DNA of 64,000 nt from an uncultured Paracoccaceae bacterium (GTDB lineage: Bacteria > Pseudomonadota > Alphaproteobacteria > Rhodobacterales > Rhodobacteraceae). The stretch lies in NCBI GenBank assembly GCA_947496605.1, contig CANMDF010000002.1, positions 372,001-436,000 on the forward strand, read 5' to 3'. A program made the translations under genes and the position numbers. Under the pieces are notes generated by a model that was not told where the DNA came from, ran no database searches, and saw only the letters and a program-made list of their open reading frames with translations. Shown piece by piece: positions 48,800 through 63,605 of the stretch. The stretch's first letter is position 1. Each line of letters starts with the position of its first letter.

Positions 48800-49468
48800 T
48801 CAGACAGTCGGGGCTTTAGCGAATGGCAGGTGGCCTGTCTTGATCCAGAACGTGGCTCCTGCCTTGTTTGCTGTGATCTTTAGCGGGATATTTTGTGGCA
48901 AGCGCAGCCATGCCCCTGTGCTCAGCGTGTCGGCCCCTTCGGTTGCACTACCCGAAATCATCAGCAACTCGGTGCCGCCGGTGGGCGTTTCTGCGAGAGA
49001 AGCGCCCGGTGCAAGCGAGATGAAACGTACTGTTTCACGATCGTCTTGATGGAGTGTTTGGCCTGTGATGCCTGCCCCTAAGGACGCGAGCCCAGCGGTC
49101 ATGTCTTTGCGAAACTGTGTCCGGTCATCAGGGTCGAACTGCCAGAGTTTGACAAAGATCGTGCAACCTTCGGCAGCGCCCGGTGTGTGCGATGTTGTGG
49201 GTGGATTGCGCACGTATGTGCCGGCTGGATAATCGCCATGTTCGTCTTGGAAGACACCGTCGAGGACGATGAATTCTTCACCGCCTGTATGTGTATGTGC
49301 CGAAAACGTGCTGCCGGGTGCGTAGCGTACAATCGATGTGGCCCGCGCGACTTCGTCCCCGATCCGGTCAAGCATGCGCCGGTCAACGCCGGGCATGGGT
49401 GACGCTTGCCAAGGCAGATCAGTTGTGTTGACCAAAACCCGTTGCGCGAAATCAGCGTTCAGTTCCAT
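48800..49468 (-). CDS. Double-cupin ChrR-like protein
   Basis: A 222-residue protein with two cupin domains. The first has the metal-binding pattern [25 protein letters not shown] (residues ~60-84, shown in part), close to the C-terminal cupin of the anti-sigma factor ChrR; the second (residues ~130-215) is weaker. The ChrR zinc-binding N-terminal domain is missing, so it is not a full anti-sigma factor. It lies 11 bases after pxpA and belongs to that operon. Confidence 0.88.
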
Positions 49469-49478
49469 GGTGTTTCCT

Positions 49479-50237
49479 TCAAAGCTTGGCGATTGTGATA
49501 CCGGCATCCGAGAGGTGCTGCCGAATGCCTCGTGCCATCGTCACAGCCCCGGGCGTGTCCCCATGCAGGCAGATGGTGTCAATCTGGCAAGGGATGTGTT
49601 TTCCGGATTCTGAGATAATCGCCCCGGCGTTCAGCATTTCCAGTATGCGCGGTGCCGCGGTTGTCGCGTCATGCAGTACGGCGCCGGGTTTGCTGCGATC
49701 AACCAGAGTCGCGTCATCATTGTAGGCCCTGTCAGCAAAAATTTCGCCTGCCCAGTTGCAGCCCAACTCGCGCGTGACGTCTTCCATCGCTGTTGCAGCC
49801 AGCACCATGATCACGATGTCGGGGTCCACGTCGAGGGCCGCTTGATAGCACGCCCGCGCCAAAGCGTAATCGACCGATGCCATGTTCGAGAGCGCCCCAT
49901 GCAGTTTCAGGTGCCTGACTGACCCACCAGCCCGCTTGGCCATCGCTTGTGCAGCGCCCAGTTGATAGGCGACCGCGTTGGCGATTTCATGATGCGGGAG
50001 CGGCAGTTGCCTGCGCCCGAACCCTTTGAGGTCTGCGAACCCCGGATGTGCACCTATGCCAACACCATTTGCGACGGCTAGTCGCATCGTTCCATCCATG
50101 ACATCGGGGTCGCCTGCATGAAACCCGCAGGCGATATTTGCGGATGAGACGATATCCAACAGCGCCGCATCGTCGCCCATCTGCCATGGCCCAAAGCCTT
50201 CGCCCATATCAGCATTTAAGTCGACGGTGCGTGTCAT
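49479..50237 (-). CDS. pxpA: 5-Oxoprolinase subunit A
   Basis: The LamB/YcsF-family subunit of the ATP-dependent 5-oxoprolinase PxpABC, which opens 5-oxoproline to glutamate. The 252-residue protein opens with [14 protein letters not shown] and contains [12 protein letters not shown] (near 40) and [15 protein letters not shown] (near 70), all family hallmarks. The start at 50237 is two bases past the pxpC stop. 5-Oxoproline arises from glutathione and glutamine breakdown. Confidence 0.94.
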
Positions 50238-50238
50238 G

Positions 50239-51258
50239 TCAGGGCCTTTCAAGGTCATCGCCGGGGGTCGCCCCGCTGATCAATTGGTAGCGCAGCAGAT
50301 CGGCAATGTCATGCGGGTCGCGGATAATGGGCTGGCACATCTTTGTGATCGCGCGCAGTTGCGCATCATATGACTGCGCTGTTGTATCGGCGTCTGCGAG
50401 CGACAAAAATTGAAACCGCAAAGGCGTGCCCGGAGCGGCCTGTGCGATCTTGGGCAAGTCCGCAGGAATAACGCTGCCGATCCGGGGATAACCCCCGATA
50501 GTTTGGCATTCGGCAAGTAGAATGTAGGGGACACCTGCACCCGTGATTTGGATGTCACCGGGCACAATAAGATCGGACACATGGGTCAATCCGCCCGTGG
50601 TGCTGAAATCGCCACCTTCATAGTCCAGTCTGATCCCTTGCCGGTTGCCCTTTGCACTGCGCAGGAAAGTCATGGCGCTGAATGCGGTCTGCGTTTGCTG
50701 ATCAAAGAAGTCCGTCTGTGGTCCGGGCATGATCCGGATCATGCCGCCTTTGAAACGGTCTGAGGGTGGCAGTTTTTGTGGAGCAGCCATGCGCTTTGGG
50801 TCTGGACCCAATGGCAAGGTATCACCGGCTTGTAGCCGTGCCCCGATACCTGCTGTCAGATGCGTCGCGCGGCTGTCCATGATCGGGTCTGTTGTCATCC
50901 CGCCAGCAAAGCGCAGATAGCCATAGACGCCCTTTTGCGCCCCCCGGATCGAGAGTTCTGCGCCAGCAGGCAAAAAATGCGTGCAATTGTGCGCTGCGTT
51001 TTCGCCATCGATGTCGGCCTGCATGACAGCGCCGGTTAAGGTAAACCGCACACCTTCGCTTGTGCTGAACGTCCCCCCCAAGCCCATCATTTCGATTGCG
51101 GCGTCGGCTGGATTTGTACCAAGTAAAGCTGCGCCTTCTAACAATGCAAGCGGATCAGCTGCGCCACCTGTGGACAACCCTTGGGCTTTCCATCCGGGGC
51201 GCCCGAGGTCTTGGATTGTCAGGCCGGGTCCTGCGCTGTGAATGGTCAGTTTCGGCAT
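50239..51258 (-). CDS. pxpC: 5-Oxoprolinase subunit C
   Basis: The 339-residue biotin-dependent carboxylase-like subunit (KipA/AHS2 domain). It begins with IHSAGPGLTIQDLGRPGWKA (in part) and contains GLSTGGAADPLA and the downstream RIMPGPQTDFF near 190. The ATG at 51258 overlaps the stop of pxpB (TAATG), which decides the start. Confidence 0.93.
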   Translation of the reverse strand: MPKLTIHSAGPGLTIQDLGRPGWKAQGLSTGGAADPLALLEGAALLGTNPADAAIEMMGLGGTFSTSEGVRFTLTGAVMQADIDGENAAHNCTHFLPAGAELSIRGAQKGVYGYLRFAGGMTTDPIMDSRATHLTAGIGARLQAGDTLPLGPDPKRMAAPQKLPPSDRFKGGMIRIMPGPQTDFFDQQTQTAFSAMTFLRSAKGNRQGIRLDYEGGDFSTTGGLTHVSDLIVPGDIQITGAGVPYILLAECQTIGGYPRIGSVIPADLPKIAQAAPGTPLRFQFLSLADADTTAQSYDAQLRAITKMCQPIIRDPHDIADLLRYQLISGATPGDDLERP

Positions 51259-51992
51259 TACCGTAGCACTTCGCAAATGGCACCACCGTTGGTGTCGGTG
51301 TTCTGTTGGATTGCGCGAAAATCCGTGTCGGATACGGCTTGAAACTGCACTGCATCACCGGGTTCAAAAGCGAAGGGTTGTGATGTTTCGGGCAAATAGA
51401 CGCGGAATGCGGTTTGTCCGATGTGACGCCAGCCTGTCGGTGCATCGGCGGCCCAAATGATCAACTGACGCACGGCTGTAATCAGCGCGCCGCGTGGCAG
51501 GCCTTCGGTCAACTCTGATTGACGCGGCACGTTCCAATGATCGGGTAGCATGCCGAGGTAAGGTTGTCCGGGTGCAAAGCCGATCGCGATGACACGCACA
51601 GTCGTGGCTTCGATATCGGCGATGGCTTGCGCGGGTGTGATCCCGGCCAGGGTCGCGACCTCTTGCAATTGCGGTGCAAATGCGGGGCTGAAGGCCGCTG
51701 GAATGCGCCACTGCCGACGGGGCCCGAGGTCCGTGGCAGTAGGGGTATCCAGCAAGGCTGAGATGGCTTTCGTGACAATTTCGCGGGTGGTGCGTTCAGG
51801 GTCAAAGCCAACACGCACGGACACGAGAGAAGACGCAACTTCGGTCACGCCTGTGATTGCAGCGTCCGCGACCAAACTACGAAAGCTGAGCGCGCGTGCA
51901 TTTGCGTCTTCGGATAAGACCCGCGCAAAACGTACCAATATGCCATCGACCCCAAGGGGGCGTAATTCAGGGGCATGTACGTCTGCGGTCAT
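51258..51992 (-). CDS. pxpB: 5-Oxoprolinase subunit B
   Basis: The 244-residue AHS1/KipI-like subunit. The hallmark VIAIGFAPGQPYLGMLP (near residue 135) and the RQWRIPAAFSPAFAPQLQEVA region (near 92) match PxpB. It lies nine bases downstream of the rhodanese gene and overlaps pxpC by one base, giving the order pxpB-pxpC-pxpA. Confidence 0.93.
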   Translation of the reverse strand: MTADVHAPELRPLGVDGILVRFARVLSEDANARALSFRSLVADAAITGVTEVASSLVSVRVGFDPERTTREIVTKAISALLDTPTATDLGPRRQWRIPAAFSPAFAPQLQEVATLAGITPAQAIADIEATTVRVIAIGFAPGQPYLGMLPDHWNVPRQSELTEGLPRGALITAVRQLIIWAADAPTGWRHIGQTAFRVYLPETSQPFAFEPGDAVQFQAVSDTDFRAIQQNTDTNGGAICEVLR

Positions 51993-52582: not shown

Positions 52583-53398
52583 ATGCGCACCACTTACATG
52601 ATTGCCCTTTGCCTGCTTGCGGCATCGGCCACGACAACACTTGCTCAAGAGCAGACCACGGAAACTGAAACGATGGCGGAAGAGGTCATGGAAGACGCTG
52701 TTGAAGAGATGGCAGATGACGTGATGGCCGATGATGCGATGGAAGAGGCAATGGCCGATGAGCCGATGACTGAAGAGGTTATGTCGGAAGACACGATGTC
52801 AGAAGATATGGCCGACGATGCTATGGAAGCTGAAATGGCCGACGAAACCACGGACGCTGAGATGGTCGAAGACACCATGGCTGACGAAGTGATGGCCGAC
52901 GAAACGATGGCTGAAGAGACGATGTCAGACGACACAATGGCTGATGACGTCATGGCAGATGAAACACCAACCCTAGAGGAAGTGGCCGCCGCTGACCCTG
53001 ATTTAGCTGTCCGCACAAATGAAGACGGCGAAGTTGATGCGATGGTGATGCTATCCGACGTCTTGTTTGGCTTTGGTGACGCGTCGCTGAACCCTGCTGC
53101 ATTGGACGTTCTAGCCGGCGTGGCCGAGAAACTCAGCGATGTGCCTTCTCTGGAGATCACGGGTCATACAGATTCTGTTGGCGATGAAGCGTTCAACCTG
53201 GACCTCGGTCAACGCAGGGCAGATGCCGTGCGTGATTGGCTAATCGCGAACACCAGCTTTGAGGCTGACGTGATCACAGCACGTGGCGTCGGTGAGGCCG
53301 ATCCGATTGCTGAAAACCGGACCGAGGCTGGCGGTGATAACCCCGAAGGCCGCGCTTTGAACCGCCGGGTTGAATTTACGCTGCCAGACGAAGGTTAG
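52583..53398 (+). CDS. OmpA-family protein with acidic methionine-rich pentapeptide linker
   Basis: A 271-residue exported protein. Residues 1-21 are a signal peptide (ending TTTLAQ). Residues ~31-128 form a linker of five-residue units reading M-[AS]-[DE]-[DE]-x, with 19 methionines and many Asp/Glu but no Lys or Arg. Residues ~155-268 form an OmpA peptidoglycan-binding domain (ITGHTDSVGDEAFN, LGQRRADAVRDWL, NRRVEFTL). It is probably periplasmic, attached to the cell wall. The stop overlaps the convergent OtnC stop. Confidence 0.9.
   Translation: MRTTYMIALCLLAASATTTLAQEQTTETETMAEEVMEDAVEEMADDVMADDAMEEAMADEPMTEEVMSEDTMSEDMADDAMEAEMADETTDAEMVEDTMADEVMADETMAEETMSDDTMADDVMADETPTLEEVAAADPDLAVRTNEDGEVDAMVMLSDVLFGFGDASLNPAALDVLAGVAEKLSDVPSLEITGHTDSVGDEAFNLDLGQRRADAVRDWLIANTSFEADVITARGVGEADPIAENRTEAGGDNPEGRALNRRVEFTLPDEG
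52673..52966 (+). repeat. Pentapeptide-coding repeat (M-A/S-D/E-D/E-x)
   Basis: About 19 units of 12-15 bases with ATG at the start of almost every unit, inside the OmpA-like gene. All length changes keep the frame. Confidence 0.85.
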
Positions 53399-54042
53399 TC
53401 GTAGTCCACATTGAACTGTCTGACGACCTGGGCGACCTGGGCGTCAGACATCCCGATGGCATCCAAGCTACGGGTTAGAATGGCCAGCTTGGCGTTCTCT
53501 TCCAGTTCTTCCATCGCGTAGACTGTCGCGTCGAGCGTTTTGCCTGCGACCACCGGACCGTGATTGGCCAATAAGACCGCACTGCGTTTGCCTGCCAAAC
53601 CGCGCACAGCTGCGCCCATACCCGGATCGCCGGGCAGAAAGAACGGCAATAGTTTGACCTTGCCCAGACGCATGATCGTATAGGGTGTCAGGGGCGGCAG
53701 GACGTTTTCGGGATCAATGTCGGGCAACATAGACAAGGCCACCGAATGGGTTGGGTGTAAATGCACGACGGCCCCGGTTTCAGCCCGTGTATCGTAAAAC
53801 GCAGTATGCAGCCCGACCTCTTTGGTAGGTGCATCTCCTGCAAGGTGCCGTCCATCTGCTGACAAACGGCTGATCTGTGCTGGATCAAGAAACCCCATGG
53901 AACTGCCAGTTGGTGTCACAAGGATCGTTCCGTCGGAGAGCCGTTGTGAGATGTTCCCAGATGACCCACAGGTCAGCCCGCGATCAAAGATCGACTTGGC
54001 AAAACGTGTTATGTTTTCACGGGCAAGTGCGTCTTCGGTCAT
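53395..54042 (-). CDS. otnC: 3-Oxo-tetronate 4-phosphate decarboxylase-like class II aldolase
   Basis: A 215-residue class II aldolase/adducin-fold protein. GLTCGSSGNISQRL (near residue 24), VVHLHPTHSVALS (zinc His residues, near 92) and LLANHGPVVAGK are typical. Next to a DUF1537 kinase, this family member is normally OtnC, which decarboxylates 3-oxo-tetronate 4-phosphate to dihydroxyacetone phosphate. The start overlaps the otnK stop (ATGA). The true substrate of this cluster may differ. Confidence 0.87.
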   Translation of the reverse strand: MTEDALARENITRFAKSIFDRGLTCGSSGNISQRLSDGTILVTPTGSSMGFLDPAQISRLSADGRHLAGDAPTKEVGLHTAFYDTRAETGAVVHLHPTHSVALSMLPDIDPENVLPPLTPYTIMRLGKVKLLPFFLPGDPGMGAAVRGLAGKRSAVLLANHGPVVAGKTLDATVYAMEELEENAKLAILTRSLDAIGMSDAQVAQVVRQFNVDYD

Positions 54043-55256
54043 GTGCTGATTTCCATGTCGCGCAGGGCTGTTGAGAAAAAATCCTCTGCCCCAAAGTTAC
54101 CTGATTTGAGTGCAAGCGCCATATCGCCGTGCCTCAGGGCGGGGACGCCTGCGGCCAATTTGGGGCCAATGTGAAGCGTTTGCGCCTTCAATCCGGTCAC
54201 GACAGCGCCAGAAGTTTCGCCACCTGCCACGACCATGCGTTTGATCCCCCGTGCCGCGAGTGTCGCCGCGAGCGAGGCAAAAAGCCTTTCGATTTTCTCG
54301 GCAATGACGTCGCGGCCAAAGTCCTGTTGGGCCTGTGCCACAATCGCAGGGTCGGCAGAGGAATAAACCAAGGGTGCTGTGTCTTGTGCCATCACCCAAT
54401 CGGCGAGAGTTCCGGCGGTAACATCGCCTGCCATCACCTCTCTTGCTGTGATTTCCAGTGTCGGTGTTTGTTTTGCGAATGCTGAGACTTGACCGCGTGT
54501 GGCCCGGCTACAGGATCCTGACAGTACCACGCCGGGTCCGGATATCCCGTCCCATGCTGGAATAGAGGGTGTCGCGCCAAAGTTTGCGGGTAACCCGATG
54601 GCGATGCCAGAGCCGCCGGTGAGCAGTTTTTGCCCTGCTGCCGCTTTGCCAAGGCTGTGCAGATCCGCATCGGTGATTGCATCAACAATCAGCATGGCTT
54701 TCTCGTCCGGCAAGGCATCCAAAATCGCGCCTGCCCCAGCAGTGACAGTCGGGTGCGCCAGATGGCCGACAGGCCAGTTGGTTTGCCTTGCCAAGACCTG
54801 TCGAAGGTCAGGGTCTGTCATCGGCGTCAGTGGATGATCTTGCATGCCACTGGCGTTCAACAATACATCGCCGACAAAGAGGTGCCCCATGTAAACGCTA
54901 CGCCCGTTCGCAGGGAATGCGGGACAAACCATGACGTGTTTGGTGTTCAGGTGTTCAGCCAAGGCCTCGGTCACTTGGCCGATATTGCCCGCGTCGGTGC
55001 TGTCGAAGGTTGAACAGACTTTGAAGATGATCTGTTCCGCCCCTTGTGCGAGCAACCAATCACACGCCACAAGGCTTTGGGCTACCGCATCACGCACTGC
55101 AATCGTGCGGGATTTGAGCGCGACGACACCTGCGTCGACATCGACAGGCCCATCCGGAATGCCGACAAACTGTGCGGTGCGCATACCGCCTTCGGCCAGT
55201 GTTAGCGCAATGTCAGAGGCCCCTGTGAAATCATCAGCGATGACACCGATTTTCAT
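54039..55256 (-). CDS. otnK: 3-Oxo-tetronate kinase-like (DUF1537 family)
   Basis: A 405-residue four-carbon acid sugar kinase. The N-terminal VIADDFTGASDIALTLAEGG and the C-terminal nucleotide-binding MVVAGGETSGAVV (near residue 345) are diagnostic. OtnK phosphorylates 3-oxo-tetronate at C4. Its ATG overlaps the stop of the MBL gene upstream and its stop overlaps the otnC start, so all four genes of this strand are translationally linked. Confidence 0.9.
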   Translation of the reverse strand: MKIGVIADDFTGASDIALTLAEGGMRTAQFVGIPDGPVDVDAGVVALKSRTIAVRDAVAQSLVACDWLLAQGAEQIIFKVCSTFDSTDAGNIGQVTEALAEHLNTKHVMVCPAFPANGRSVYMGHLFVGDVLLNASGMQDHPLTPMTDPDLRQVLARQTNWPVGHLAHPTVTAGAGAILDALPDEKAMLIVDAITDADLHSLGKAAAGQKLLTGGSGIAIGLPANFGATPSIPAWDGISGPGVVLSGSCSRATRGQVSAFAKQTPTLEITAREVMAGDVTAGTLADWVMAQDTAPLVYSSADPAIVAQAQQDFGRDVIAEKIERLFASLAATLAARGIKRMVVAGGETSGAVVTGLKAQTLHIGPKLAAGVPALRHGDMALALKSGNFGAEDFFSTALRDMEIST

Positions 55257-56038
55257 GTTTTGCGTCCTTGGTCTAAGCGGGTGATGTGCTCGGCGATCCC
55301 TTGCGGAAAGTGCTGCCTGACAAGCGGGTCATGGCCGGGGATGATCAGCTCGGGCGCTGAAGCAAGACGATAAAGTGTATCGTAGCCGTCCATCATATTT
55401 TGCAGATCAACGACGATTGGAAAGGGTTTACGCGCTTCAAAGTTTTCATAGTAGTGTGCGGCATCAGAAGCGAGGACAAGCCAACCCGCAGAGGTACGCA
55501 CGCGCACACACTGCAGCCCTCGTGAATGCCCGCCGATGCAATGGACCGTCACGCCGTCCGCAACTTGGCCATCCCCGTCATGAAAGATCAGCTTTCCGGA
55601 ATAGAGCCGTTTGACCGCTTCGCAGACATGTTCGGCAGTAAATGGCATCCGCAGCACGTCGTGGCACATGCACGGGCCCGTCGCAAAGGCCATTTCGGCG
55701 GCTTGCATATGCAGCGTTGCGTTGGGAAACAGATGCAACCCGCCTGCATGATCATAGTGTAGGTGGGTTACGATAAGCGTGGTGATGTCTTCGGCGCGCA
55801 ACCCCAAAGGAGCCAAAGCCGCATGTGGGTTCATGCGGATCGGACGATCGCGGTTTGCGGCTTCTTCATCGTCATAACCAGTATCCACCAAGATGACCTC
55901 TTCGCCCCGTCGCAGGACCCACATGAAGTAATCCATCGCATGTGGGGCGTCGTGATTGTCATCAAAGATAAAGCTATCGCCACGGGCGCGCGCATTGCGG
56001 TCGGCGTATTTGACAGCGTGAACTTCCCAATCGGTCAT
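55253..56038 (-). CDS. MBL-fold lactonase-like protein
   Basis: A 261-residue metallo-beta-lactamase-fold protein of the N-acyl homoserine lactonase type. The zinc motif THLHYDHAGG lies near residue 102 and DTGYDDEEA near 60. Start at 56038 (MTDWEVHAVKYADR) overlaps the stop of the ABM gene by four bases. In this catabolic operon a sugar-lactone hydrolase is more plausible than a quorum-quenching enzyme, but this is inference. Confidence 0.85.
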   Translation of the reverse strand: MTDWEVHAVKYADRNARARGDSFIFDDNHDAPHAMDYFMWVLRRGEEVILVDTGYDDEEAANRDRPIRMNPHAALAPLGLRAEDITTLIVTHLHYDHAGGLHLFPNATLHMQAAEMAFATGPCMCHDVLRMPFTAEHVCEAVKRLYSGKLIFHDGDGQVADGVTVHCIGGHSRGLQCVRVRTSAGWLVLASDAAHYYENFEARKPFPIVVDLQNMMDGYDTLYRLASAPELIIPGHDPLVRQHFPQGIAEHITRLDQGRKT

Positions 56039-56325
56039 TGCGCTATTGTATCCCATGTCTGCACGTCTTTTGCAGCGATCATTGATGTAACTGCCGCATC
56101 AAAGGTGCGAAAATGCGTGCTGGTCAAGTGAAGGTCAAACGCGGCTTTGTCTTCATAGAGTTCGTAAAGGAACACGGTGTCTGGTTTGCTTGTGTCGGTT
56201 AGAACATCAAACTGGTGGCATGCAGGCTCATTGCGCAAGGATGTTCGTGCATTCTCTTGCATCAACGGCAGGAATGCCGCGGTGCTGCCGGGGTTGAGTT
56301 GGAATGTCACACAGACAGCAAACAT
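56035..56325 (-). CDS. ABM-domain protein, LsrG-like
   Basis: A 96-residue protein of the antibiotic biosynthesis monooxygenase fold. The pattern NEPACHQFDVLTD...FLYELYEDKAAFDLH.TS.HF is close to LsrG, the AI-2 phosphate isomerase in that fold, and to so-called quinol monooxygenases. It is the first gene of the minus operon (MBL, otnK, otnC) and reads away from the palindrome-containing promoter gap. An isomerase role is discussed under findings. Confidence 0.83.
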   Translation of the reverse strand: MFAVCVTFQLNPGSTAAFLPLMQENARTSLRNEPACHQFDVLTDTSKPDTVFLYELYEDKAAFDLHLTSTHFRTFDAAVTSMIAAKDVQTWDTIAQ

Positions 56326-56399
56326 TAGCAGTCCTTTCAGTTCATTTGGTTAGGTTGCACGTCGGCACGACATTTTCAAATATCGCTCTGGTCTTATGC

Positions 56400-56418
56400 A
56401 TACATTAATGTATACATT
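56400..56418. promoter_or_regulatory. Overlapping perfect palindromes, likely GntR operator
   Basis: ATACATTAATGTAT (56400-56413) and AATGTATACATT (56407-56418) are both perfect palindromes and overlap. They lie 32 bases before the plus-strand start at 56450 and 75 bases before the divergent ABM gene. GntR/FCD regulators commonly bind short TGTATACA-like palindromes, and such a regulator is encoded in the cluster. Binding is inferred. Confidence 0.6.
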
Positions 56419-56449
56419 GTCAAGAATTGATAGCGAGATAGGACGGAAA

Positions 56450-57535
56450 ATGGCGCGAAATTTTGATATTGCCGTGTTTGAAGGCGACGGTATCGGGCCG
56501 GAAATCATGGCGCCGACGGTCGCGGTGTTGGAACAGCTTGCCGCTGAATCTGATGCGTATAATCTGACGTTTGATGCATATCCTGCCGGTGCTGCACACT
56601 ATGCCAAGACCGGCGATAGCCTTCCGGCTGCATCGCTGGAGGCGGCTGGAAAGGCCGATGCTATTTTGCTCTCCGCGATGGGTTTGCCAGACGTGCGTTA
56701 CGACGACGGGACCGAAATTTCGCCGCAGATTGACCTGCGCAAAGCGTTCAATCTATTTGCAGGTGTGCGGCCCGTGCGCATTGGGCCCGGTCACAAGACC
56801 CCGTTGAAAATTCCGGACGGCCGCGAAGTCGATTTTGTATTGATCCGTGAAAGCACCGAGGGGTTATTCTATACCCAAGGCACAGGTGAGGTCACGCAAG
56901 ACGACGCCCGTGAAACTTTGCGCATTACCCGTGATGTGTCGGAAAAGCTGTTTCGGTTTGCATTCTCTTTGGCGCAGGATCGCAAGGCTTACGGCCAAGG
57001 ACCGGGCCGTGTCACATGTGTGGACAAGGCGAATGTTTTTCGTGCATTCGCGTTCTTTCGCAGCATTTTTGACAAAGAGGCCAAGGCCTTTCCCGACCTG
57101 ATCGCGGACCATGCTTATGTCGATGCCACAGCGCTTTGGATGGTGCAGAAACCTTGGGATTTCGATGTGCTGGTGACCGAGAACATGTTTGGCGATATTC
57201 TATCGGATCTTGGCGCAGGTTTGATGGGCGGCTTGGGCGTCGCGCCCTCTGCTGATATCGGACTGGAACAAGCGGTGTTTCAGCCCTGCCACGGTTCTGC
57301 CCCCGATATTGCAGGGCAGGGCAAAGCCAATCCAATGGCCATGATCCTTTCAGCGGCCATGATGTTGGAATGGCTTGGGCTGCGCCACGACGTGCGTGCA
57401 ATGACTGCTGATGGGCAAAGGCTTCGGCAAGCTGTTGAGCAGATCATGCAAGAGGGATTGGCGGTGACGGCCGATTTGGGTGGTCACGCAACGACCAATG
57501 AGACAGGGCAGGCAATCATGGCGGCGCTGGGCTGA
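56450..57535 (+). CDS. Isocitrate/isopropylmalate dehydrogenase-family protein
   Basis: A 361-residue NAD-dependent beta-hydroxyacid dehydrogenase. GDGIGPEIMAPTV (near residue 12), QIDLRKAFNLFAGVRPVR (near 92), RESTEGLFYTQG (near 133), the Lys in CVDKANVF (near 190) and the metal-binding Asp pair in MFGDILSDLGAG (near 248) are present, so the enzyme looks active. AGGACGG precedes the ATG. Tartrate, malate or other hydroxyacid substrates are possible in this family; the cluster suggests a sugar acid. The stop overlaps the next start (TGATG). Confidence 0.9.
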   Translation: MARNFDIAVFEGDGIGPEIMAPTVAVLEQLAAESDAYNLTFDAYPAGAAHYAKTGDSLPAASLEAAGKADAILLSAMGLPDVRYDDGTEISPQIDLRKAFNLFAGVRPVRIGPGHKTPLKIPDGREVDFVLIRESTEGLFYTQGTGEVTQDDARETLRITRDVSEKLFRFAFSLAQDRKAYGQGPGRVTCVDKANVFRAFAFFRSIFDKEAKAFPDLIADHAYVDATALWMVQKPWDFDVLVTENMFGDILSDLGAGLMGGLGVAPSADIGLEQAVFQPCHGSAPDIAGQGKANPMAMILSAAMMLEWLGLRHDVRAMTADGQRLRQAVEQIMQEGLAVTADLGGHATTNETGQAIMAALG

Positions 57536-58548
57536 TGGTTGTGCAGGTTGCATGTGTTGGCGCGGGTTATTTTGCGCAGTTCCACATTGGCAGTTGGAAA
57601 CGTATGTCAGATGCAAAGTTAGTCGGCGTTTGCGATCTTGATCCTGATCGGGCAACAGCCGCGGGCGTCGCAGCCTTTACAAATATGCAAGACATGCTGG
57701 GCGCGGTGGAGGCGGACATTGTTGATATTATCTTACCGCCATTTGGGCAGGCGGAAGCGATCAAAGTTGCAGTTGCCGCGAAAGTCCGGTTGATCATTTG
57801 TCAGAAACCGTTCTGCACCTCGTTTGAAGAAGCGCGGGAAATGACAAGCCTCGTGGCCCGCGCAGGTATCCCGCTTGTCATACATGAGAATTTCCGTTTT
57901 CAGCCATGGTATCGCGTGATCAAGACAGCCATTGACCAAGGCCGCATCGGGCAGCCATTGCAGGCGACGTTTCGGTTGCGGCCTGGCGATGGACAGGGCA
58001 AGGACGCCTATTTGGATCGCCAACCTTACTTTAGGGACATGCCACGTCTATTGATCCACGAAACGGGTGTGCATTTCGTTGATGTGTTTCGTTTCCTTTT
58101 TGGAAATCCCACCCATGTTTACGCGGATTTGCGTCGGGTGAACCCGGTTATTGTGGGCGAAGACGCTGGCTTTGTCGTGTTTGATCATGCGGATGGTGTG
58201 CGCGGGGTCTTTGATGGCAACCGTTGCCTTGATCACGCCGCTGATAACACGCGACGCACGATGGGTGAGGCGCTCTTTGAAGGAACAAATGGCGCGATAA
58301 CTTTAACAGGGGATGGTGCTGTGCATTTTCGTGCTGTGGGTCAGCAGACCCAGCAACAATTGCTTGCCCCGGATAACCATGACGGATTTGGCGGGGATTG
58401 CACACATGCCTTGCAGCAGCACGTCGTCGCCGCAATGACCACAGACGGCGCGTTGGAAAACGAGGCTGCCGACTATCTAAGTGTGATTGCAGTTGAGCAA
58501 GCAATTTATGCATCTGCTGAACAACAACGACGGGTTGCCGTGGTATGA
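57535..58548 (+). CDS. Gfo/Idh/MocA-family oxidoreductase
   Basis: A 337-residue NAD(P)-dependent sugar dehydrogenase-type protein. The Rossmann motif VGAGYFAQFHIGSW, the E/QKP motif CQKPFCTSFEEA (near residue 87, with Gln in place of Glu) and HENFRFQPWYR (near 120) are family marks; IHETGVHFVDVFRFLFG near 175 carries the active-site His. In the cluster it may oxidise a free sugar to its lactone. It is coupled on both sides by overlaps. Confidence 0.9.
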   Translation: MVVQVACVGAGYFAQFHIGSWKRMSDAKLVGVCDLDPDRATAAGVAAFTNMQDMLGAVEADIVDIILPPFGQAEAIKVAVAAKVRLIICQKPFCTSFEEAREMTSLVARAGIPLVIHENFRFQPWYRVIKTAIDQGRIGQPLQATFRLRPGDGQGKDAYLDRQPYFRDMPRLLIHETGVHFVDVFRFLFGNPTHVYADLRRVNPVIVGEDAGFVVFDHADGVRGVFDGNRCLDHAADNTRRTMGEALFEGTNGAITLTGDGAVHFRAVGQQTQQQLLAPDNHDGFGGDCTHALQQHVVAAMTTDGALENEAADYLSVIAVEQAIYASAEQQRRVAVV

Positions 58549-59222
58549 GGACCGACGAAATTAGGCCAAAGAACAACTCGACAATCGCAGTCGAAAAGCT
58601 GCGCGATTTGATTTTTTCAGGTGCCCTTCCCGCCGGATCGAACCATTTGGAAACAGAACTCGCAAAGCGGCTGGGCATGTCGCGCACCCCGGTTCGAGAG
58701 GCCGCACTGACGCTAGAAGCGCAGGGGTTGGTCGCAGTTCAGGCACGAAAAGGAGTCAAGATCTTACCAATCTCGGTGCGTGACATGGAAGAAATCTATG
58801 ATGTGCTTACAGCTTTAGAAAGCATGGCGGCACGGCAAGCTGCCGAGCAGGCTTATGGCTATGAAGATCTGGCTGCACTTGCACAGACCATCACTGACAT
58901 GGAAGCCGCTCTTGGTGAAAATGACCGTGACCATTGGGCCGTGGCCGATGATAATTTCCATACCGAACTGGTGCGCCTTGGCGGAAATCGCAGGGTCATG
59001 TCGACCGTTGCGATGATGGCAGATCAGGTCCGCCGCGCAAAGGCCGTGACGCTGTATTTGCGTCCGCTGCCGTCCCAGTCAAACGAAGATCACCGCGCAG
59101 TCTTGGAAGCCATTGCCAAGGGTGATCCAGCGCGGGCCGAAGAGGTCCACCGCATGCATCGGCTCGAGGCAAAAGATACATTGATCGCGTTGTTGACCCA
59201 AAGTCGACTACAAATGCTCTAG
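58545..59222 (+). CDS. GntR-family regulator with FCD domain
   Basis: A 225-residue transcription factor. Residues ~10-75 form the winged helix-turn-helix (ETELAKRLGMSRTPVREAAL). Residues ~85-215 form the FCD effector domain with likely metal ligands Asp and His in ADDNFHTEL (near 125), His in NEDHRAVLE and His in VHRMHR. It overlaps the dehydrogenase stop (ATGA), so it is the last gene of the plus operon it probably controls. A sugar acid or lactone is the expected effector. Confidence 0.92.
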   Translation: MRTDEIRPKNNSTIAVEKLRDLIFSGALPAGSNHLETELAKRLGMSRTPVREAALTLEAQGLVAVQARKGVKILPISVRDMEEIYDVLTALESMAARQAAEQAYGYEDLAALAQTITDMEAALGENDRDHWAVADDNFHTELVRLGGNRRVMSTVAMMADQVRRAKAVTLYLRPLPSQSNEDHRAVLEAIAKGDPARAEEVHRMHRLEAKDTLIALLTQSRLQML

Positions 59223-59346
59223 GTCGTTCGGGCAAGAAGTCCGGAACATTCAACTCTAGTAACTCGTTTCAGGCGGGCCTATCTACAATCTTGAGACGAC
59301 GTTTGGCGGCGCTGTGCATGCACAAACAACTCTGAAAGGTTGCCCG

Positions 59347-60492
59347 ATGGCGCAAGATACACAGACGGATTTGGCTGGAAAACTGACATTTGAAGCCGAT
59401 AAGGGCGCTGGGCGATCAAAGTGGGTTGCTGTTTTTCTGGCATTGCTCTTGGTTTGCTGGATGGGCAGTGGCTATATTTTGCCATCGGACTTATCCGAGG
59501 ATGCTGTTGAAGAAACCCCTACGCAACGTGCCATTGCCGTCGCCGTCATGCCCTCGCAAGCTGATGATGTAGAGTTGGTCCTTTCCGCGGAAGGCCAGTC
59601 TGAGCCTGATCGCGCGACCAACATTCAGGCTGAAACGTCCGGGCAGGTCGTTTCTGTTGCCGTCCGGCGTGGTGATCTTGTGACCGCTGGACAGGAACTT
59701 GGTCGTATTGATGCGGCAACGATCGAAGCACAGCTTTTGCAGGCGCAGACCCAGCAAGAGCAAGCGACGCGAGATCTAAGAAACGCAATCGAGCTGCAAA
59801 ACCGGGGTGTCGCGACCGAGGACCGTGTCAGCAATGCGCGCGCAGCTAAAGCCGCCGCAGATGCGGCAGCGACTGCCGCACAGGAGCAGTTGGAAAATAC
59901 GATCATCCGTGCACCTTTTGCCGGTCGCTTGAACGACATGACCTTGGATGAAGGCGAATTTGTTGATGCTGGCAATGTCGTCGCCGAAGTGTTGGACAAT
60001 GATCCTTTGACGGTCGTTATCCAAGTTCCTCAGCAAGCGCTGTCTCGTATTCAGACGGGTCAGAATGCGCAGGTCCAGTTCATCACAGGTGAGCAGCGCC
60101 CGGGTGTGGTCAGTTTTATCGGCGCAAATGCGGATCAGCAAACCCGCACTTTTCGCGTAGAAGTCACCGTAGATAATCCTGATAGCGTGATGCCGGCAGG
60201 TCTGAGTGCACGTATCGCGATACCGACAGGGCAGGCGCGTGGTCATTTTATTTCGCCTGCGATCTTGTCGCTTGGGACGAACGGCGATCTTGGGATTAAG
60301 ACCGTGCAAGACGATAATACTGTCGCCTTTGCACCTGTTGCCATCGTGCGTGCGCAAACAGATGGTGTTTGGGTCACGGGATTGCCTGAAAGCGCCCAGA
60401 TCATCACTGTTGGCCAAGGCTTTGTGAATGCAGGTGATGTCGTTGATCCCCGTATTGAGGGGGCCGAACAGACAGCAGGTGTATCCCAATGA
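59347..60492 (+). CDS. RND efflux periplasmic adaptor subunit
   Basis: A 381-residue membrane fusion protein. Membrane anchor at residues ~22-42 (WVAVFLALLLVCWMGSGYI), a lipoyl-like part (NIQAETSGQVVSVAVRRGDLV), a short Ala-rich coiled coil (about 110-175), IIRAPFAGRLNDMTLDEGEFV and a C-terminal beta-barrel. GAAAGG lies at good spacing before the ATG at 59347. It overlaps the pump gene (ATGA). Confidence 0.9.
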   Translation: MAQDTQTDLAGKLTFEADKGAGRSKWVAVFLALLLVCWMGSGYILPSDLSEDAVEETPTQRAIAVAVMPSQADDVELVLSAEGQSEPDRATNIQAETSGQVVSVAVRRGDLVTAGQELGRIDAATIEAQLLQAQTQQEQATRDLRNAIELQNRGVATEDRVSNARAAKAAADAAATAAQEQLENTIIRAPFAGRLNDMTLDEGEFVDAGNVVAEVLDNDPLTVVIQVPQQALSRIQTGQNAQVQFITGEQRPGVVSFIGANADQQTRTFRVEVTVDNPDSVMPAGLSARIAIPTGQARGHFISPAILSLGTNGDLGIKTVQDDNTVAFAPVAIVRAQTDGVWVTGLPESAQIITVGQGFVNAGDVVDPRIEGAEQTAGVSQ

Positions 60493-63400
60493 ACGCCCCG
60501 ATCGATGCGGCGTTCAATCGCAGCAAGGTCGTCCAGCTCGTCTTGGTGTTTTTGCTTGCCGTTGGTGCACTGTCCTACAGTGCGATCCCCAAGGAAAGTA
60601 ACCCCGAAATCCCAATTCCGATTATCTTTGTATCGGCGTCTGTCGATGGCATCTCGCCAGAAGACTCAGAGGATGTTTTGGTCGGCCCACTTGAAACAGA
60701 GTTCGCCTCACTGACCGGACTTAAGTCGATGACCGCGACAGCCAGTGAAGGGCGTGGCGCAGTTCAGCTAGACTTTGAGCCTGGTTTTGATGCGGATGAG
60801 GCCTTGGATAAGGTCCGCGAAGGCGCTGACAAAGTTGAAAGCGAACTGCCGTCTGATGCCACGGTAATCGTGACCGAGATCAATACGGCCTTGTTCCCGA
60901 TCCTGACGGTGATCCTGTCTGGCCCGGTACCAGAACGCACGCTCAACGCGCTTGCCGAAGACCTGCAAGATGACATTGAGGCGCTGAGCGGTGTGCTTGA
61001 GGTGGATGTGGGTGGCAAGCGCACAGAATTGATGGAAGTTCTGATCGATCCCACGGTTTTTGAAACCTACAATATTTCCTTCAATGAGCTGATCAGCTCA
61101 ATCACCAACAACAATCAATTGATTGCCGCTGGAGCGATTGAAAGTGAAGCAGGACGCTTGGTTCTGAAGGTGCCCGGTCTGATCGAAGACATCGAAGATG
61201 TGATGTCTTTGCCTGTTCTTGTACGCGGCCAAACTGTTGTCACCTTTGCAGATGTCGCCACGATCCGCCGCACCTTTGAAGACCCCACTGGCTTTGCCCG
61301 CATTGATGGCCAGCCAGCGTTGGCGCTTGAGATCAAGAAACGTGTCGGTGCCAATATTATTGAGACCGTTGCCGAAGTGCGTGAAGTCGTAGAAGCGACC
61401 CAAGGCGACTGGCCAGAGAACGTGCAGGTCCGCTATACGTTGGATGAAAGCGAAACTGTGAAATCTATGCTTTCTGATCTTGAGGCCAACGTGATTGCCG
61501 CCATCATTTTGGTCATGATCGTGGTGGTCTACGCATTGGGTTTGCGATCGTCTTTGCTGGTTGGTTTGGCCATTCCCGGTGCATTTTTGACGGGCGTTGC
61601 GGGCCTCTATTTCATGGGCTTTACCATGAATATCGTTGTGCTGTTTTCGCTGATCCTTGTGGTGGGTATGCTCGTGGACGGCGCGATTGTGACCGTGGAA
61701 CTAGCGGATAGATATCTGCACGAAGGCAAATCCCCCAAAGAGGCTTACGCTTTTGCCGCCAAGCGCATGGCGTGGCCGATCATTGCGTCAACCGCGACCA
61801 CACTTTGCGTATTCTTTCCGTTGTTGTTCTGGTCAGGTGTCGTGGGCGAATTCATGAAATTCCTACCCATCACTGTGATCTTTACCCTATCTGCATCGCT
61901 GTTTATGGCGCTGGTCTTTATTCCGGTCATGGGCGGCGTCATCGGCAAACGCCAGTCGCAATCGGCAAAGTCCAAGGCGCAGCTATACGCCGCTGAACAT
62001 GGTGATCCGCGCCGGATGACCGGTTTTATGGGTGGCTATGTGCGCGTCCTGGAATGGTCGATCTTGCGGCCTTGGACCACGTTGAGCTTTGCGATGATGG
62101 CACTTGTGGCGTCGTTTGTGGCTTATGGCAGCTTTGGCAATGGCCTCACGTTCTTTCCCGAGGTCGAACCAGAGTACGCCCAGGTCGAGGTGCGTGCCAA
62201 GGACAACTTCTCGGTCTATGAGCAGGACGCTTTGGTGCGTCAGGTTGAAGCGCGGCTTGCCGTTTATGATGAAATTGCCAGCGTCTATGCCCGTTCCGGT
62301 GGGGGGAATGAAGGCGATGCGATTGGGGCGATCCAGTTGGAACTGGCGGATTGGGACACGCGGCGACCTGTTGCCAAGATTGCCGAAGATATCCGCACAG
62401 ATATGGCTCAAATCCCGGGCATCGATGTGCAGGTTCAAACAGATTCCGGCGGCCCCGGTGGCGGTAAACCGATCAACCTTGAAGTTGTCGGCAATGTTCA
62501 GGCCGAGCAGGAAGCCGCCATTGACTCGATCATCGCCGAAATGGACCGCATGGGTGGTTTTATCGACGTGGTCGATACCCGCCCAAGCCCGGGGGTTGAA
62601 TGGCAGATTGCGGTTGACCGGTCCGAGGCTGCGCGTAGCGGTGCCAATGTCGCCGTTCTGGGACAGGCCGTGCAATTGCTAACCCGCGGCATCACAGTGG
62701 CTGACTATCGCCCCGAGGATGGTGACGGCGAAGTCGATATTGTGGTGCGCTTTCCAGCCGGTGACCGTACTTTGGCTGAACTTGAGGCCCTGCGCGTGCC
62801 CACCGATGCAGGCCTTGTTCCGATCTCGAATTTTGTGTCTTTCATTCCCGCCCCGCGCAGTGGTGTCATTACCCGCATTGACCAAGAGCGAGTGATTACG
62901 ATCTCCGCTGATGTAGCTACGGGTGTGCTGGCCAATGATCAGACGGTGGCCTTACAAGCCGCCATTGCAGACCTTAATCTGCCCGCGAGCGTCCGTGTTG
63001 AATTCGGCGGTGAAGCCGAAGAACAAGCAGAATCCATGACCTTCCTGATCGGCGCATTTGTGTCCTCGATTGGGTTGATGTTCGTGATCTTGCTGACCCA
63101 ATTCAACAGCTTCTGGCAAGCATTCGTGGTGATGTCGGCGATTGTGTTTTCAATCGCGGGTGTTTTGCTGGGCTTGATGATCACCGGCCGTCCCTTTGGC
63201 GTCGTCATGGGCGGTATTGGTGTGATCGCTTTGGCGGGCATTGTGGTGAACAACAATATCGTTCTGATTGATACGTTTAATCAGTTGAAGGCGCTAGGGT
63301 ATTCGTCGCTTGAGGCCGCCTTGCGCACAGGTGCGCAGCGTTTGCGCCCGGTGGTGTTGACCTCTGTCACAACGGCGTTGGGTCTCATGCCGATGGTGAT

Positions 63401-63605
63401 TGGGTTGAACATCAACTTTTTCACGCGGGAAATTGTTTATGGGGCGCCTTCAACCCAGTGGTGGACCGAACTCTCCAGTGCGATTGCGGGTGGTTTGGTC
63501 TTTGCAACCGTACTGACGCTATTGGTTACCCCTGCAATGTTGATGCTGGGTGAACGTCGTGCGAAGCGGTTTGAAGCGGGACCTGCGTTGGTTCCAGCCG
63601 AATAA
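60489..63605 (+). CDS. RND-family efflux pump permease
   Basis: A 1038-residue inner-membrane pump of normal RND length with about twelve helices and two large periplasmic loops. The TM4 signature with acidic pair in VGMLVDGAIVTVE (near residue 402) and the symmetrical late GIVVNNNIVLIDTFNQL (near 918) are present. It resembles the HAE-type subgroup with PKESNPEI near the N-terminus. It pairs with the adaptor upstream; no outer-membrane factor gene is adjacent. Confidence 0.92.
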   Translation: MNAPIDAAFNRSKVVQLVLVFLLAVGALSYSAIPKESNPEIPIPIIFVSASVDGISPEDSEDVLVGPLETEFASLTGLKSMTATASEGRGAVQLDFEPGFDADEALDKVREGADKVESELPSDATVIVTEINTALFPILTVILSGPVPERTLNALAEDLQDDIEALSGVLEVDVGGKRTELMEVLIDPTVFETYNISFNELISSITNNNQLIAAGAIESEAGRLVLKVPGLIEDIEDVMSLPVLVRGQTVVTFADVATIRRTFEDPTGFARIDGQPALALEIKKRVGANIIETVAEVREVVEATQGDWPENVQVRYTLDESETVKSMLSDLEANVIAAIILVMIVVVYALGLRSSLLVGLAIPGAFLTGVAGLYFMGFTMNIVVLFSLILVVGMLVDGAIVTVELADRYLHEGKSPKEAYAFAAKRMAWPIIASTATTLCVFFPLLFWSGVVGEFMKFLPITVIFTLSASLFMALVFIPVMGGVIGKRQSQSAKSKAQLYAAEHGDPRRMTGFMGGYVRVLEWSILRPWTTLSFAMMALVASFVAYGSFGNGLTFFPEVEPEYAQVEVRAKDNFSVYEQDALVRQVEARLAVYDEIASVYARSGGGNEGDAIGAIQLELADWDTRRPVAKIAEDIRTDMAQIPGIDVQVQTDSGGPGGGKPINLEVVGNVQAEQEAAIDSIIAEMDRMGGFIDVVDTRPSPGVEWQIAVDRSEAARSGANVAVLGQAVQLLTRGITVADYRPEDGDGEVDIVVRFPAGDRTLAELEALRVPTDAGLVPISNFVSFIPAPRSGVITRIDQERVITISADVATGVLANDQTVALQAAIADLNLPASVRVEFGGEAEEQAESMTFLIGAFVSSIGLMFVILLTQFNSFWQAFVVMSAIVFSIAGVLLGLMITGRPFGVVMGGIGVIALAGIVVNNNIVLIDTFNQLKALGYSSLEAALRTGAQRLRPVVLTSVTTALGLMPMVIGLNINFFTREIVYGAPSTQWWTELSSAIAGGLVFATVLTLLVTPAMLMLGERRAKRFEAGPALVPAE

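Follow-up and report, generated by a model that had tools for sequence, protein, structure and literature searches.

A conserved divergent gene set of Rhodobacterales that may channel a four-carbon sugar acid into glycolysis

A 64,000-nucleotide stretch from the 3.47 Mb genome of an uncultured Paracoccaceae bacterium (GCA_947496605.1, contig CANMDF010000002.1; G000:C2:372001-436000), called the window here, contains seven genes at 53395-59222 that lie on two strands around one intergenic gap (Table 1). One strand encodes an ABM-fold protein (ABM), a lactonase-like hydrolase (MBL), OtnK, and OtnC, and the other an IDH/IPMDH-type dehydrogenase (IDH), a Gfo/Idh/MocA dehydrogenase (GFO), and a GntR regulator. 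All seven reading frames were present in an open reading frame check of the window, on the strands assigned to them in a preliminary description made from the sequence alone. The identities given there to OtnK and OtnC were likewise confirmed, both proteins scoring above their NCBIfam cut-offs; the other five fell below all cut-offs of that collection. The description had further stated that all joints within each strand are overlaps of 1-4 bases, which is correct if MBL is read from its second ATG (56038), giving overlaps of 4, 4, 4, 1, and 4 bases, and incorrect from the first ATG (56056), where the overlap is 22 bases instead.

Table 1. Genes and candidate operator of the divergent set (positions in the window)
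Feature	Position	Strand	Basis
otnC	53395..54042	-	NCBIfam NF043034, 288.3 bits (cut-off 250); Pfam Aldolase_II
otnK, 3-oxo-tetronate kinase (SBD_N + NBD_C)	54039..55256	-	NCBIfam NF043035, 513.5 bits (cut-off 350)
MBL, lactonase-like hydrolase, proposed aldonolactone lactonase	55253..56038, second ATG as start	-	Pfam Lactamase_B
ABM-fold (LsrG-like) protein, proposed 2-oxo/3-oxo-tetronate isomerase	56035..56325	-	Pfam ABM
Palindrome ATGCATACATTAATGTATACAT, proposed GntR operator	56396..56417		Intergenic conservation
IDH/IPMDH-type dehydrogenase, Tyr-to-Phe clade, proposed tetronate dehydrogenase	56450..57535	+	Pfam Iso_dh
GFO, Gfo/Idh/MocA dehydrogenase, proposed lactone-forming aldose 1-dehydrogenase	57535..58548	+	Pfam GFO_IDH_MocA
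GntR regulator (FCD)	58545..59222	+	Pfam GntR + FCD

The gap between the two gene groups contains a 22-base palindrome, which was recovered from 39 of 55 related intergenic regions when up to 6 of its 22 bases were allowed to differ, whereas shuffled sequences that preserve single-base content only gave a mean of 0.0. This palindrome is proposed as a candidate operator to which the GntR protein would bind. The ATG at 56396, from which the preliminary description had started IDH, coincides with the first base of the palindrome, and the conserved IDH protein, by comparison with relatives, begins at 56450 and is preceded by GGACGG; the earlier start was abandoned, and the true start is probably 56450 rather than 56396.

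The seven genes form a real conserved unit. In a family survey of 295 genomes, drawn evenly from a larger group and belonging to 294 genera, the MBL protein had a match at 1e-20 in 67 genomes, of which the 55 with at least 57% identity were used (one of them, G151, has a stop inside MBL) and the 12 distant ones (39-49%) were set aside. A search of named genomes with the MBL protein confirmed 148 loci; the best 80 were kept, and the 68 of these with at least 8 kb on both sides were counted, 12 being dropped for short flanks. Gene presence, determined by blastp at self-set thresholds, was 66 of the 68 loci for both ABM and GFO, 62 for IDH, 53 for GntR, and 35 each for OtnK and OtnC. GFO, IDH, ABM, and MBL occur jointly in 62/68 loci and the complete seven in 26/68, so that the set is conserved across the family, a point on which the preliminary description had let its own reading depend. 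In 75 of 77 loci, ABM and MBL are direct neighbours with a common orientation. The arrangement can vary; for example, MBL faces a GntR-IDH-OtnK-OtnC-GFO-ABM run followed by TRAP genes in a rearranged set (L126 and L133), and a Sulfitobacter plasmid carries the gene order of the window plus a TRAP importer. The sample includes one further genome of the host genus, which had no match to MBL and none to the OtnK model. A chance neighbourhood was rejected on these locus counts and on the co-occurrence of OtnK with MBL given below, and no description of this gene set was found among the open-licence PMC papers listed in literature searches.

An OtnK above the cut-off is present in 49 of the 55 MBL genomes and in 49 of the 240 others, an odds ratio of 32 that ignores kinship, though the genomes come from 294 genera. 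In 24 of the 55 genomes, at most 12 kb separate the kinase from MBL, and in 20 of these it is the sole OtnK of the genome. Thirteen of these 20 genomes have no LtnD above the cut-off (a tally in which one contig-end kinase fragment below the cut-off, in G022, counts as an in-locus kinase), so another dehydrogenase must serve there, and three genomes (G093, G223, and G269) also have no OtnI-family match at 1e-50. The OtnI family was used for these three match-free genomes only, since the NCBIfam cut-off of 325 fails to split OtnI from its paralogues (a member of an LtnD-OtnK-OtnC cluster scored 284.3), with 201 of the 295 genomes matching at 1e-50 and 17 above the cut-off. In 26 further MBL genomes, OtnK is found only elsewhere; 23 of these have LtnD, and the three such places inspected (L158-L160) are LtnD-OtnK-OtnC-OtnI clusters. 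The upper module thus seems to need a lower half, its own or a borrowed one. In a kinase tree of 56 rows, 36 kinases from these loci, including the OtnK of the window, form their own starred clade (99/98), a second and weakly held group of seven (80/55; L066, L079, L126, L128, and L132-L134) comes from rearranged sets, and the kinases of LtnD clusters are placed in two other positions. In Pseudooctadecabacter jejudonensis (L082, 7.6-8.5 kb), the in-locus OtnK is in pieces, and a further OtnK, next to LtnD on a different contig, seems to be retained.

The absence of LtnD and OtnI reported in the preliminary description holds among the seven genes (for OtnI at NCBIfam cut-offs) and does not extend to the whole genome. 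The host carries a lone LtnD (418.9 bits; G000:C3:283774-284658), together with an OtnI-family protein of unsure identity (C2:614512-615255), which scores 308.8 bits, under the cut-off of 325, and is 37% identical to the OtnI of LtnD clusters; L-threonate might therefore also use the OtnK and OtnC of the locus. A rival reading is that OtnK and OtnC serve plain L-threonate use with the distant LtnD, and that GFO, IDH, ABM, and MBL are a separate pathway at a shared address. The single OtnK and lone LtnD of the host agree with it, as does the LtnD in 23 of the 26 genomes with OtnK elsewhere, but it is quite improbable given the 13 of 20 sole-OtnK genomes without LtnD, the separate clade of 36 in-locus kinases, and two rhizobial stretches, described below, in which IDH and ABM stand beside OtnK-OtnC and LtnD was neither annotated nor found by blastp. 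The host LtnD (L156:9272-10174) and two further genes sit between apparent rplW and rplB genes, in a ribosomal protein operon.

The IDH protein reached no NCBIfam family cut-off. Residues R97, R107, R133, K193, D225, and D249 are kept in all 84 IDH relatives and D253 in 83 of the 84, and the position of the catalytic Tyr is occupied by Phe (F140) in all 84. The host LeuB-like protein and the outgroups L165, L166, and L169 have Tyr at this position. A starred branch (97/88) of a tree built from 38 selected rows separates the 31 with Phe from 6 with Tyr, 1 row being unread; rearranged versions of the set contain a second IDH lineage, which comprises 14 rows with 100/100 support and has about 47% identity. 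The three arginines hold a malate-like dicarboxylate in this family. A Lys-Tyr pair does the acid-base work in the IDH/IPMDH family, where the enol left by decarboxylation is the target of the Tyr, a role for which Aktas and Cook (2009, among the references of PMC8468904) are reportedly the source. The exchange of Tyr for Phe is read here as a probable adaptation that lets the enzyme oxidise its substrate and not decarboxylate it, in keeping with a carboxyl that OtnC removes later. Neither this exchange nor ABM as a possible substitute for OtnI figured in the preliminary description.

The nearest solved relative of GFO is 5uhw (sequence E 1.4e-39, profile 4.8e-49, fold E 1.6e-33), at 28% identity in the fold alignment, the fold having been predicted from the window protein aligned with 50 of 94 relatives (pLDDT 91.7). 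NCBIfam has no model naming 5uhw. A homologue 93% identical to 5uhw is encoded in an apiose-type cluster of Rhizobium lusitanum, directly before ApnL and overlapping it, in the company of a sugar ABC importer, OiaX (783.2 bits, cut-off 700), ApnL (1041.3 bits, cut-off 750), and an OiaK-like kinase that remains below its cut-off (471 bits vs. 700). By its position, the homologue would be the apiose dehydrogenase or another apiose enzyme, and this kinship lends support to lactone formation by GFO and to the aldose-lactone-acid logic of the preliminary description. D-apiose itself, the sugar named there as a parallel, draws on the same homologue, whose gene stands between those of a sugar importer and that of ApnL in the OiaX/OiaK-like cluster, yet the kinase of the window reaches 95.7 bits with the OiaK model (cut-off 700) and 513.5 with that of 3-oxo-tetronate kinase (cut-off 350), and neither OiaX nor ApnL is among the seven. 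D-apiose was rejected as the substrate on this kinase family assignment, and its catabolism by the set is highly improbable.

The motif TH.H.DH is kept in 106 of 107 MBL relatives. RefSeq naming of relatives suggests a quorum-quenching N-acyl homoserine lactonase with the rest of the set unrelated, and such lactonases are indeed the best family models for the protein, one plasmid relative also carrying a homoserine-lactonase annotation. The scores are far under the respective cut-offs (76.3 bits vs. 375 for AiiA and 70.6 vs. 360), on which ground quorum quenching was rejected, and the near-constant position of MBL beside ABM further makes this role scarcely credible. Five plasmid relatives of MBL at 44-48% identity lie in contexts that differ mutually and fix no substrate.

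In the ABM protein, E33, C36, F39, and Y57 are kept in 99/99 sequences and H66 and H71 in 98/99, three rhizobial copies included. A residue profile comparison with a chosen subset of 12 of the 99 sequences showed E33, F39, D40, E55, Y57, H66, and H71 in common with LsrG (2gff), against whose model ABM scores 36.8 bits (cut-off 135). LsrG isomerises P-DPD ahead of its cleavage to dihydroxyacetone phosphate (part of PMC8016206), and OtnI acts on 2-oxo-tetronate (part of PMC12540250). Judged by structure, these two enzymes would carry out the same kind of carbonyl shift, and the chemistry and the neighbours of ABM suggest an isomerase role for it as well.

Four rhizobial plasmid stretches, chosen from 30 listed among the 713 plasmid records that matched IDH at all, contain a different version of the set. 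GntR, IDH (about 53% identity), and ABM are consecutive in all four, OtnK and OtnC follow downstream in two (L162 and L172), and GFO and MBL are found in none. The Agrobacterium stretch L162 has the order sugar ABC importer, SDR, GntR, IDH, ABM, HAD, aldehyde dehydrogenase, otnK, otnC, with a kinase of 575.1 bits and a decarboxylase of 310.9 bits. A sugar ABC importer and an SDR (without a solved relative at 1e-15) were seen in the rhizobial stretches, and an aldehyde dehydrogenase in three. The HAD protein (L162:10430-11140), between ABM and the aldehyde dehydrogenase, resembles cis-epoxysuccinate hydrolase (8wmt, E 6.7e-50). Given the recurrence of IDH and ABM beside OtnK-OtnC in two of the four stretches, the pair may replace LtnD and OtnI.

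The lack of a transporter noted in the preliminary description is true of this locus, where none stands beside the set in the window, and untrue of its relatives. A TctC-TctB-TctA system is carried inside the set in 26 of the 68 loci, where the gene orders place it between IDH and ABM (Pfam confirms TctC and TctA, and TctB was assigned from its position alone), and a TRAP DctP occurs in 7 of the 68, the DctP of L041 scoring above the cut-off; under a stricter TRAP rule (DctM at 60%), none was found among the 68 loci. The host genome has two TctC proteins, one 32% identical to the cluster type and the other with no match to it at 1e-5. TctCBA and TRAP systems usually carry carboxylates, so the acid may be the outside substrate, and relatives with these importers can probably also take it up directly.

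An imported acid also enters a rival proposal, which starts from a sugar both branched and carboxylated, for example a 3-C-carboxy-tetrose. GFO and MBL would turn this substrate into a dicarboxylate with a malate-like part, IDH would oxidise and decarboxylate this, as is normal for its family, to 2-oxo-tetronate, ABM would convert the product to 3-oxo-tetronate, and OtnK and OtnC would finish the route. The retention in IDH of the three substrate arginines, the Lys, and the metal Asp of the family would be accounted for, and the TctCBA and DctP counts, the presence of ABM in 66 of 68 loci, and the kinship of GFO to a protein encoded among apiose genes (apiose, too, is a branched derivative of a tetrose) point the same way. 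The Tyr that acts on the enol after decarboxylation is, however, Phe in all 84 relatives, the rhizobial versions have a sugar ABC importer, and we know of no natural sugar of the 3-C-carboxy-tetrose type, which also counts against the proposal and leaves it rather unlikely.

The explanation preferred here, with a probability of roughly one half, is that a GntR-controlled divergent operon pair channels a four-carbon sugar acid into glycolysis, for which we infer the following substrate and order of steps. GFO would act on a small furanose sugar (a tetrose or close relative) in its cyclic form and oxidise it to a lactone, which MBL would hydrolyse to a tetronate. The IDH-type enzyme, having lost the Tyr of decarboxylation, would oxidise the tetronate to an oxo-tetronate and retain the CO2. 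If the product is the 2-oxo acid, ABM would bring the carbonyl to C3 in a shift like that made by LsrG during autoinducer-2 (AI-2) breakdown, after which OtnK would phosphorylate C4 and OtnC would decarboxylate the product to dihydroxyacetone phosphate.

Several observations weigh against this four-carbon acid pathway. The three kept arginines of IDH, the main argument against oxidation without decarboxylation, do not suit a plain tetronate well, and an acid imported by TctCBA or TRAP systems would make the sugar dehydrogenase and lactonase needless. No OtnK call stands beside the set in 33 of the 68 loci, 6 of the 55 MBL genomes have no kinase above the cut-off (2 of the 6 have fragments), and kinship may bear on the co-occurrence of OtnK with MBL, even with 294 genera sampled. 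Neither OtnK nor OtnC was found in two of the four rhizobial stretches (L161 and L173). Neither ABM nor OtnK accompanies the Phe-type IDH in the stretches read from Cupriavidus (L168) and Rhodococcus (L171), which argues against a fixed IDH-ABM pair, and some loci (L138, L140, and L149) have GFO, ABM, and MBL and no IDH. In addition, C36 of ABM is Asn in LsrG, and several of the residues shared with LsrG also occur in other ABM proteins.

The gene set would then be a conserved variant of the tetronate pathway, present on plasmids as well, with a new candidate dehydrogenase and a new candidate isomerase. A broader and more doubtful proposal is that it belongs to a further route from four-carbon sugar acids to dihydroxyacetone phosphate, in which a Tyr-less IDH-fold enzyme takes the place of LtnD and an LsrG-fold protein that of OtnI, and that a mobile IDH-ABM-OtnK-OtnC module is joined to different upper halves (Gfo/Idh with MBL lactonase in Rhodobacterales and SDR with aldehyde dehydrogenase in rhizobia). 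If true, the source of 3-oxo-tetronate would be explained in those Rhodobacterales that have OtnK in the set and no LtnD, and four gene families whose present names mostly reflect their fold would gain functions. IDH would be a natural enzyme of its family adapted to halt before decarboxylation, and marine carbon cycling would gain a carbon source, possibly tetronates derived from ascorbate.

The surroundings of the set hold several further genes. In the window, a run resembling the 5-oxoprolinase genes pxpBCA plus a cupin (48800-51992) comes before the set, and a comparable run comes after it in L032, L033, L034, and L036. Between this run and otnC lies an OmpA-like protein by appearance (52583-53398), with an extended acidic repeat in which M, A, D, and E are abundant, and directly after GntR are genes that look like an RND efflux membrane-fusion protein and pump (59314-63605). 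Eight loci (L048, L056, L058, L059, L069, L077, L080, and L095) have an extra aspartate dehydrogenase gene beside GFO, and in these eight, genes resembling urease come after MBL. A DUF4147/MOFRL protein (L149:6072-7298), which we take to be of the glycerate kinase type, adjoins GntR in a locus where GFO, ABM, and MBL are present and neither IDH nor OtnK is nearby.

Several known systems resemble parts of this set. Tartrate, isopropylmalate, and isocitrate dehydrogenases belong to the same family as the IDH described here and have the three Arg, the Lys, and the metal Asp in common with it, whereas their catalytic Tyr is Phe here and no cut-off is reached. The LsrK-LsrG-LsrF system of AI-2 breakdown likewise combines a kinase, an ABM-fold isomerase, and a C-C cleavage to dihydroxyacetone phosphate (part of PMC8016206), but the ABM protein of the window stays below the LsrG cut-off, and the cleavage would be made by OtnC and not by a thiolase. 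The oxidative D-apiose pathway consists of a dehydrogenase, a lactonase, an oxidoisomerase, OiaK, and OiaX, and D-apiose supports the growth of a Rhodobacteraceae strain that has a cluster of this kind (part of PMC11747546). It has in common with the present set a sugar dehydrogenase and a lactonase followed by a DUF1537 kinase; the kinase family score differs, the lactonase is unrelated, and OiaX is not among the seven genes. In the tetronate route described in 2024 (part of PMC12540250), OtnI is missing, as it is here, and OtnC is of the FbP-aldolase type, whereas the OtnC of the window is an Aldolase_II protein, which is the 3-oxo type. The catabolism of L-threonate and D-erythronate uses LtnD (or DenD), OtnI, OtnK, and OtnC (Zhang et al., 2016, as cited in part of PMC12540250), and a Brucella cluster contains ltnD, otnK, otnI, denD, and otnC (part of PMC10580937). 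The set described here has an IDH-type enzyme and ABM, with GFO and MBL, in place of LtnD and OtnI, and, with OtnK and OtnC above their cut-offs as in that route, presumably has the same last two steps to dihydroxyacetone phosphate.

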